A stretch of 64,000 nucleotides of DNA from Akkermansiaceae bacterium. GTDB lineage: Bacteria > Verrucomicrobiota > Verrucomicrobiia > Verrucomicrobiales > Akkermansiaceae. Below, piece by piece: positions 59,699-62,724 of the stretch; position 1 is the stretch's first letter, and each line of letters starts with the position of its first letter. Under the pieces are notes generated by a model, which was not told the origin of the DNA, did no database searches, and was given only the letters and a program-made list of their open reading frames with translations. The translations under genes and the position numbers were made by a program. The stretch covers positions 1 to 64,000 of the forward strand of contig JARWZU010000070.1 in assembly GCA_029866215.1 (NCBI GenBank), read 5' to 3'.

Positions 59699-60364
59699 TC
59701 AGAGCGATGCCTTGATCGAACTGAACTTCGAGTTGAGTTGAGCAAGCTCAGCCTCTGCCTTAGCGATTTGATTGCTCAATGAAAGAAGCAAGCTCAGCTT
59801 GTTCGTGATTCCTCCCGAAACAGCTGGAGTTGCTGCAACCTTGCGAGGTCTTCCGGCTGTTCCAAGCTTGCTAGCTTTTTTGACCAACTTCTTGGGAGCC
59901 TTCTTGATTCCTGCGGCCTTCAACCAAGCCATCACCGTGATTGGCGAAAGCTTGAACTTCTCGGCTGCCTTGCTCTGCCCACCACGTCCATTGGCAGCAT
60001 TGTAGTCACTGACAAAGTCAGTAACTTCCTTTTTCTCAGCAGGAGTGTAGCGCGGACGGACGCCCTTTGCGGCATTCGGAGCTTTTGCTGCCTTCGGAGC
60101 TTTTGCTGCCTTCGGAGCCTTTGCTGCCTTCGGAGCCTTCGCTGCCTTCGGAGCCTTCGCGGCTTTGAGGGACTTCCCAACCCCAGCGGCTTTCAGCCAT
60201 GCCCCAATGGTGATCGGGGAAATTTTGAATTTGCTGACTGCTTTAGCCTGTCCTCCACGACCACTTGCCGTGTTGTGACTAACGACAAAGTCTACCACTT
60301 CTTTCTTTTGCGCATCGGTATATCTAACCCCTTGCACTGCTTTTTTGTTAACGTTGGTACTCAT
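59699..60364 (-). CDS. double-HTH DNA-binding protein with AKAP-type linker, AT-hook-like motif and coiled coil
   Basis: 221-residue basic protein. Two near-duplicate helix-turn-helix domains of the transposase/Orf-A type occupy about 14-60 and 104-152 (R/P-x-YT-x-A/E-K-KEV... GRGGQ-K-A...FK-SPIT..AWLKAAG). They are joined by a Lys/Ala/Pro linker of five KAAKAP hexapeptides (about 65-100), like the tails of histone H1 and bacterial Hc/Kap proteins. After the second HTH comes an AT-hook-like GRPRK (about 171-175) and a ~35-residue leucine-rich helix suited to coiled-coil dimerisation. It probably binds or bridges DNA as a nucleoid-type protein. Start ATG 60364; adding 9 residues at 60391 is the alternative. 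Confidence 0.75.
   Translation of the reverse strand: MSTNVNKKAVQGVRYTDAQKKEVVDFVVSHNTASGRGGQAKAVSKFKISPITIGAWLKAAGVGKSLKAAKAPKAAKAPKAAKAPKAAKAPKAAKAPNAAKGVRPRYTPAEKKEVTDFVSDYNAANGRGGQSKAAEKFKLSPITVMAWLKAAGIKKAPKKLVKKASKLGTAGRPRKVAATPAVSGGITNKLSLLLSLSNQIAKAEAELAQLNSKFSSIKASL
60069..60168 (-). repeat. 18-bp coding repeat encoding KAAKAP units
   Basis: Five in-frame 18-bp units (for example GGAGCCTTCGCTGCCTTC) starting near 60075, 60093, 60111, 60129 and 60147. On the minus strand each encodes the hexapeptide KAAKAP. The units are nearly identical, so copy number may vary between strains. Confidence 0.9.
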
Positions 60365-60457
60365 GACGAGAGCGAACCTATAAATCGGCACCCTACTGGC
60401 AAGCTAAATATAATTCGCCGATTTCAGATATTTTGACGACGCAAACGATATCCATGA

Positions 60458-61579
60458 TTACCCCGAAATCACATCACTCAGAATTGGCCACTCATTGAGA
60501 TCCATCAACCAATGATCGCAACGCTCTTTGATCATTGGGCGACTCACGACGCCACCAAAGCCGATAAAATGATCCACATCAGACCGAGTCTCTAAATCGG
60601 AGATTCCATCACCCATCATGATCACCCGTTTGGGGAGGGTTGCCTGCTTCCACTCACGAATCACCTCATTTTTACCCATATTCCGAGTGGTAGGGTAATC
60701 CTTTCCATAGCCCCTGTAAGAACCATCTTCATTAAAATATAAAGGCACAGCTTCCACATGCTCAATGCCTAGCATATCCGCTAACGGCTGGATCAATGGG
60801 GCAAATCCACCCGAAAGCACTACTGGCAACCAGCCCGCCATCTTCAATTCTGCAACCATTTCCACCGCACCCGGCACAACCGTCCGCATATAGAGATCCG
60901 CGATGGCATCACAAAGCTCACGGTCAGGACGGATCATTTCCATCCGGCGCGGGAATACCTCATTGATGGGAATTTCTCCATTCATCGCCGCATGAGTCAA
61001 TTGAACCACGCGCGAGAACACATCACCTCCTCTCGCACGTGCCAATTCATCGATGCCTTCGATCGTCGAGAGCGTCGAGTCGCAGTCGACAAAGAATAAT
61101 TTACCTCTGCGTCGCGTTGCCGGTTTGATTTCGAGCTGCATTCCTTCATGAGCCATTTCAAATAGCTCGAGGATCGCCGTGTGACTCAGCCGGATGCAGC
61201 CCTTACTGGCGGGCTGCCCGAGCTTGTCTTCATGATTCGTACCATGAAGATAAATCATTCTCTCCATGGTGTTGGCATTGTCGGCACCCAGTCCTTCAAT
61301 CCGCAGAATCCGCGTCAAAATCAAATCGCCAACGTCCAATGAATCTCTCTGCCAGACACCGATGGGTTTTCGATGTTTAAAGATCGTTCCAACAGGTTCA
61401 CCCTCTCCGATTTTTTCAGAAATCCGGAAATGCCCCGTTGGGGTACGATAACTCCCTTCGGAAAAACCCATCCCTTTGATTGAAGAAGAGATGGAAAACT
61501 CCGTGATGCATTTTGAACCCTCCATGACCTGGAGCAATTGATCATCTAGGGAAACGACGAGATGGCGATTTGAACTCAT
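60458..61579 (-). CDS. L,D-transpeptidase (YkuD) fused to phosphoserine phosphatase-like HAD domain (SerB)
   Basis: 373-residue two-domain protein. Residues about 1-152 are a YkuD domain: RTPTGHFRIS (45-54), HGTNHEDKLG (112-121) and the catalytic Cys128 in ASKGCIRLSH. Residues about 160-370 are a SerB-type HAD phosphatase: nucleophile motif VDCDST (164-169) with EGIDELA, motif II SGGF (256-259), a motif III Lys in MGKNEVI and GDGISD (323-328). No signal peptide is visible, so the YkuD half would be cytoplasmic, where transpeptidation is unexpected. Its ATG overlaps the ketosynthase gene stop by 4 bp. Confidence 0.85.
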   Translation of the reverse strand: MSSNRHLVVSLDDQLLQVMEGSKCITEFSISSSIKGMGFSEGSYRTPTGHFRISEKIGEGEPVGTIFKHRKPIGVWQRDSLDVGDLILTRILRIEGLGADNANTMERMIYLHGTNHEDKLGQPASKGCIRLSHTAILELFEMAHEGMQLEIKPATRRRGKLFFVDCDSTLSTIEGIDELARARGGDVFSRVVQLTHAAMNGEIPINEVFPRRMEMIRPDRELCDAIADLYMRTVVPGAVEMVAELKMAGWLPVVLSGGFAPLIQPLADMLGIEHVEAVPLYFNEDGSYRGYGKDYPTTRNMGKNEVIREWKQATLPKRVIMMGDGISDLETRSDVDHFIGFGGVVSRPMIKERCDHWLMDLNEWPILSDVISG

Positions 61580-62724
61580 GGCGGCGAAAGAACAAGTAGA
61601 GCATTGTGCCCGCCCATTCCGTGGGAGAGCTTATAAATGAGTCCACTGAGATCAAGCGATTGATCAGGCACGAGAAACCCTGCAGGCATGTGTCGCCCAG
61701 CAAGATTCGGCGGGAGTTGATGATCTCTGGCGAACCTTGCTAGAATCACACTCTCTAACAAGCCGCTCGCACCGATGGTGTGTCCGATGAATGACTTGAG
61801 GAGGTGCAAGGTGGGCCGAGATGCAGCCTCGCAAAAGACCCGACTCAATGAAGCTGGATCAGCCACTGCTTGGACAGCGGTTCCGGTCGCGTGAGGACAA
61901 ATAGCCGCCGGGGCACCAAACTGACTGATTGCTTTTTCTAACAGAGAATAGGTATTTCCACCATCGGCAGGGATGCCCACCGGATCACACGCATCGGAGT
62001 TGCATCCGTAGTGGAGCAGTCGGGGAAAAGCGCCCGAGTGCCTCTCGATCGCCATCGCGGCTGCTCCCTCAGCAGGGATAAATCCAGCTGACTTTGGGTG
62101 ATACGGGTCAAGATCCATCTCAGATGCCAGCAGTCCAGAGGCAGCGTAGTTATCTAATAGAATCGGGACCAAAGGGAGATCCACTGCGACAGCCAGGGCA
62201 CGCGACGCAGCCCCTGACTGAACCAGCATCATCGCAATGCCAACGGCATCCAGACCCGCAGCGCAACCGCTTGCAAGCACGTGATTTGGGCCTGCGATTC
62301 CAAGCTCGATGGTGATTGCTGAAGCGGGCTCGCTGTGAATCGTGTTGCTGGCCGCCATCAGTCGAAACGGTCGCCGCCCCGGCCACGGCCCAAGCCAGCC
62401 CGCTGCGTTTCCACGGCTTGTTCCCACTACTAGAGCTGCATCGCGCAAATCTGCGTCGCTCCAGCCCGCTTCGGCAACCGCTTCCCGCGCCACGTGCAAC
62501 GCGGCCATCGTTGCAGGGCTCCATTTTCGATTCACCAATAACGATCTCCGCTCGATCCATGCTCCAGGCCGCATGGCATGGGGACTCTCTGCACCCAAAA
62601 GATCTCCTAGCCTACGAAACGGAACGTGCCGCAGTCTAAGATTTCGGTGGTGAGACGCCACATCATTGCCCAACGCAGAGAGGGCTCCGAGGCCGGTGAT
62701 CGATAGAGAGGATGAGGTGGCCAC
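61576..62724 (-). CDS. ketosynthase-like protein (FabF/KS-related)
   Basis: 382-residue thiolase-fold condensing enzyme. The C-H-H triad is present: C154 in ASGCAAGLDAVG (usually TACASG), H278 in CPHATGTAVQ (usually HGTGT), and K310/H315 in LKSFIGHTIGASGLLE. Sequence around these differs from FabF, and the protein is slightly shorter, so it is a divergent KS, perhaps acting in aryl-polyene or other secondary lipid synthesis, though no acyl-carrier gene adjoins. It overlaps the L,D-transpeptidase-SerB gene by 4 bp and is therefore coupled to it. Confidence 0.82.
   Translation of the reverse strand: MATSSSLSITGLGALSALGNDVASHHRNLRLRHVPFRRLGDLLGAESPHAMRPGAWIERRSLLVNRKWSPATMAALHVAREAVAEAGWSDADLRDAALVVGTSRGNAAGWLGPWPGRRPFRLMAASNTIHSEPASAITIELGIAGPNHVLASGCAAGLDAVGIAMMLVQSGAASRALAVAVDLPLVPILLDNYAASGLLASEMDLDPYHPKSAGFIPAEGAAAMAIERHSGAFPRLLHYGCNSDACDPVGIPADGGNTYSLLEKAISQFGAPAAICPHATGTAVQAVADPASLSRVFCEAASRPTLHLLKSFIGHTIGASGLLESVILARFARDHQLPPNLAGRHMPAGFLVPDQSLDLSGLIYKLSHGMGGHNALLVLSPP

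Follow-up and report, generated by a model that had tools for sequence, protein, structure and literature searches.

A YkuD domain joined in frame to a SerB-like phosphatase in Akkermansiaceae

The fused gene and its neighbours

The window analysed here is a stretch of 64,000 nucleotides (positions 1 to 64,000 of contig JARWZU010000070.1) from an Akkermansiaceae bacterium whose genome assembly (G000) amounts to 3.0 Mb in 88 contigs. Near its end, a single open reading frame on the minus strand runs from a YkuD domain straight into a HAD phosphatase domain. The features of the locus, with the evidence for each in brackets, are as follows.

60458..61579, minus strand: fused coding sequence of 373 aa with an ATG start, predicted ElsL-type YkuD plus SerB-like HAD-IB phosphatase (ORF, Pfam, NCBIfam, 47 genomes)
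61130..61567, minus strand: YkuD domain, residues 5-150, with His112 and Cys128 in HGTN...SKGCIR (Pfam YkuD)
61103..61129, minus strand: junction, residues 151-159, without a linker (alignment of fused homologues; gap lengths in fused versus unfused loci)
60497..61102, minus strand: SerB-like HAD domain, residues 160-361 (approximate), with DCDST, SGG, K303 and GDGISD (TIGR00338, PDB matches)
61576..62724, minus strand: upstream beta-ketoacyl-ACP synthase-like gene, overlapping the fusion by 4 nt (ORF, Pfam)

The N-terminal half matches Pfam YkuD over residues 5-150 (2.3e-14; 54.6 bits, cut-off 23.4), and its best NCBIfam match, over residues 6-145, is the ElsL model NF040925 (2.8e-23), with a score of 82.5 bits that stays below the cut-off of 270 bits. 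The C-terminal half matches Pfam HAD across residues 163-330 (5.7e-12) and the NCBIfam serB model TIGR00338 over residues 156-355 (7.7e-29), in the latter case at about 101-102 bits, below the equivalog cut-off of 144 bits. A first-pass annotation, made from the window alone, had noted an intact YkuD pair (His112/Cys128) and all four HAD motifs. The four motifs are indeed present, and both catalytic sets are invariant in 30 aligned fused homologues, which share His112, Ser125, Gly127 and Cys128 in the YkuD half and Asp165, Asp167, Thr169, Ser256, Lys303, Asp324 and Asp328 in the HAD half. The alignment of fused homologues contains no conserved internal methionine at the start of the HAD half.

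The fusion had also been described as coupled to a divergent ketosynthase. The coupling stands, the 4-nt overlap being real, and the product of 61576-62724 keeps the Cys-His-His set when aligned to FabF. A 743-aa open reading frame in another locus (L093) had suggested a triple fusion with the ketosynthase, which was rejected because the ketosynthase is matched in a different frame. Next to YkuD, the ketosynthase-like gene is conserved (window 61576-62724; loci L059, L063-L065, L077 and L078), and it precedes several unfused YkuD genes too, while in several unfused genomes bioB is found directly upstream of the ketosynthase/YkuD set; the gene could conceivably act near biotin precursor synthesis. 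Downstream of the fusion, positions 59699-60391 (minus strand) encode a small basic protein in which KAAKAP repeats are flanked by two similar HTH-like segments; in most of the loci inspected, a homologue of this protein comes after the phosphatase gene.

Distribution and origin of the fusion

The same open YkuD-HAD frame occurs in 47 of 145 Akkermansiaceae genomes, that is in 19 of 22 genomes of the window's own genus (g1), 18 of 18 of g7 and 10 of 10 of g11. This bears out the in-frame fusion proposed at first pass, excludes the frame error that the same annotation had raised against itself and equally rules out a misassembly; 60458-61579 is a genuine in-frame fusion and a new domain combination. 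A scan of 289 genomes of the phylum turned up no such fusion beyond the family, HAD and YkuD being separate there, and no description of a fusion between YkuD and phosphoserine phosphatase was found in the literature searched. Within the family, 11 genomes (10 of g9 and one of g10) have YkuD and HAD on one strand, separated by stop codons, and in many others the two are matched separately; 41 of the 145 genomes have no SerB match at E<=1e-8, though YkuD is matched in almost all of them. Where unfused loci were fetched, the YkuD and HAD genes mostly adjoin, often on the same strand, and in four loci (L059-L062) they are in frame with each other, with a gap of 15-60 nt and a stop between.

In a tree of 71 HAD sequences, the 33 fused rows form one side of a branch with an SH-aLRT support of 99.5, a placement that agrees and is compatible with a single fusion event, in what is a quick tree with midpoint rooting only, where one fused row (L063) sits on a very long branch. 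Many relatives preserve the gene order ketosynthase-YkuD(-HAD), including some whose HAD gene sits elsewhere by hisI, so the genes that fused were most likely neighbours in an operon beforehand. In the ancestor of three Akkermansiaceae genera, an ElsL-class YkuD gene and the next gene of the operon, serB, would have become one reading frame. Among the closest relatives dN/dS is about 0.10-0.17 in both halves, which indicates purifying selection on both.

Predicted activities and location of the two halves

YkuD enzymes normally act on peptidoglycan in the periplasm while SerB is cytoplasmic, and the first-pass annotation had therefore invoked either a novel role of the YkuD half in the cytoplasm, in amidation or on peptides, or export by an unusual route. 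The lack of a signal peptide on which this reasoning was built is confirmed by hydropathy, with KD(15) peaking at 0.73 within the first 45 aa, against 2.46 in an exported paralogue, and a hydrophobic N-terminus is found by the same measure in none of the 30 fused homologues. Neither of the two proposals is supported, however, since Acinetobacter baumannii has a YkuD protein without a leader, ElsL, which serves muropeptide recycling as an L,D-carboxypeptidase in the cytoplasm (PMC8649774), and with such a class known the paradox dissolves. That the YkuD half might nevertheless be an ordinary envelope L,D-transpeptidase, exported without a recognisable signal, is very improbable: the fold is mostly exported and an exported, lipoprotein-like YkuD paralogue outscores the fused domain on the ElsL model, but the uniformly non-hydrophobic N-termini, the established cytosolic YkuD class and the cytosolic location of the partner phosphatase's known relatives all argue against it. 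The paralogue in question bears a lipobox (L002; G000:C38:21031-21462) and reaches 107 bits, so that the model alone is no marker of a cytosolic carboxypeptidase; the stand-alone YkuD of a relative (L078) scores 98 bits.

The rest of the genome points in the same direction. Mpl is present (412 bits, over the cut-off), LdcA (Peptidase_S66) was not found at E<=1 and the six other YkuD proteins have N-termini that look, by eye, Sec- or lipobox-like (following an internal Met in the case of L047), which makes the fused YkuD domain, as judged from sequence, the natural candidate for the carboxypeptidase that serves recycling in this genome. In that role, His112 and Cys128 would support thiol hydrolysis of L,D bonds in muropeptides, trimming the terminal D-Ala off recycled tetrapeptides for reuse of the tripeptide by Mpl. 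Orthologues of ElsL have been reported in all orders of Verrucomicrobia, in a survey that kept single-domain proteins of 105-200 aa and discarded those of >200 aa (PMC8649774). Fusions of 373 aa would thus have been filtered out, and surveys of ElsL-type recycling enzymes that filter by length overlook the fused ones.

For the HAD half, the best PDB matches are entries for human phosphoserine phosphatase. Its residues Glu174, Met199, Arg212, Ser256 and Gly257 align with human Glu29, Met52, Arg65, Ser109 and Gly110, which together with Phe58 make up the phosphoserine-site residues considered for the human enzyme. The loss of serine-binding residues that had been named at first pass as fatal to the proposal is therefore not seen at the sequence level, five of the six being kept and Phe58 being replaced by Ile or Leu in all 30 fused copies; a structure prediction from a three-row alignment gave a mean pLDDT of 34.4, too low for use. 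A search for another serB in the genome, also suggested at first pass, leaves the HAD half as the sole candidate, with 102 bits against 22 for the next. As for the rest of the pathway, SerA scores above its cut-off, and a search of the genome for canonical SerC (TIGR01364) gave no hit; contig C54 encodes a class V aminotransferase that could replace SerC. Phosphoserine phosphatase appears to be the likeliest role, in which Asp165, Asp167, Lys303 and Asp324 would remove the phosphate from phosphoserine in a Mg-dependent reaction through an aspartyl-phosphate.

Alternatively, the HAD half could have changed its substrate to a different phosphomonoester, such as a sugar phosphate of cell-wall recycling, which would make the fusion a two-step recycling enzyme; in Pseudomonas, MupP has the role of a MurNAc-6-phosphate phosphatase. 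The replacement of Phe58 and the missing canonical SerC would fit such a shift, as would the scores across the family, where the serB cut-off is reached in 0 of 145 genomes (most genomes with a match having exactly one). There is also a precedent in an algal fusion of a PSP-like domain with glycerol-3-phosphate dehydrogenase (PDB 6iuy; PMC7468427), which makes glycerol from DHAP, so that its HAD acts on glycerol-3-phosphate and the family name does not fix the substrate. We nevertheless regard a shifted substrate as unlikely, because the remaining phosphoserine-site residues are kept, a genome that has SerA contains nothing else that is SerB-like and the unfused HAD relatives, several of which adjoin hisI, share the same motifs.

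Significance of the fusion and comparison with known systems

The fused gene thus probably encodes a bifunctional cytosolic protein that arose from operon neighbours and combines an ElsL-type carboxypeptidase with a phosphoserine phosphatase. We infer both enzymatic activities and the cytosolic location, where the two active sites would operate independently, and any benefit of the fusion would lie in co-expression at a fixed stoichiometry rather than in substrate channelling.

It is quite possible, if short of probable, that the fusion of these same two enzymes is neutral, i.e. that a stop codon between operon neighbours was lost and the change fixed by drift without any interplay between the halves. 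Such an origin is compatible with the bifunctional cytosolic protein proposed here, since it concerns only why the fusion exists. It would fit with what is seen in one genome (G053), whose fused homologue (L063:5001-6137) has lost HAD motifs I and IV (DxDST and GDGxSD) and has Lys303 replaced, while the frame is open and the YkuD His and Cys are kept, but with Ser125 changed to Gly; G053 carries another weak SerB-like gene, on contig C53. It would fit as well with the many relatives, such as the listed g3 genomes, that have YkuD without any SerB match, which shows that the two functions are not obligatorily linked. On the other hand, two genera keep a single frame in every one of their 28 genomes and a third does so in 19 of 22, which speaks against neutrality. 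The decay in G053 and the occurrence of YkuD without SerB elsewhere indicate that the functions are separable, which makes co-expression or drift likelier than tight coupling. A functional coupling, in which the HAD would act on an intermediate of cell-wall recycling or the half that trims muropeptides would tune serine synthesis (or the reverse), seems improbable, although if true it would link peptidoglycan turnover to amino-acid metabolism in Akkermansiaceae. A need for serine at position 1 of the stem peptide was also considered and found no support: MurC of Verrucomicrobium spinosum takes L-Ser in vitro, but the peptidoglycan of that species carries L-Ala at this position.

For the bifunctional cytosolic protein, the novelty is the domain combination, the YkuD class itself being already known and calling for no unusual export or chemistry. 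As a natural fusion, it hints at a possible shared regulation of muropeptide recycling and serine supply in these relatives of gut Akkermansia. Like its fused counterpart, ElsL of A. baumannii (PMC8649774, NF040925) is a leaderless YkuD of about 150 aa with the His and Cys motif, but it is a single domain, whereas the Akkermansiaceae protein has a SerB-like phosphatase at its C-terminus and falls far short of the NF040925 cut-off. With SerB (human PSP 1nnl/6hyy; TIGR00338), the HAD half shares the HAD-IB motifs and most phosphoserine-site residues, and it differs in its N-terminal YkuD partner, the change of Phe58 to Ile/Leu and a sub-equivalog score. The algal bidomain enzyme (PDB 6iuy; PMC7468427) is likewise a natural fusion of a SerB-like HAD to another enzyme, but with a different partner and with a HAD that acts on glycerol-3-phosphate. 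Finally, the MurB/MurC fusion of V. spinosum (PMC4803751) resembles the present one in being phylum-restricted and in involving cytosolic peptidoglycan enzymes, but while MurB/MurC joins two steps of one pathway, YkuD-SerB joins two pathways.
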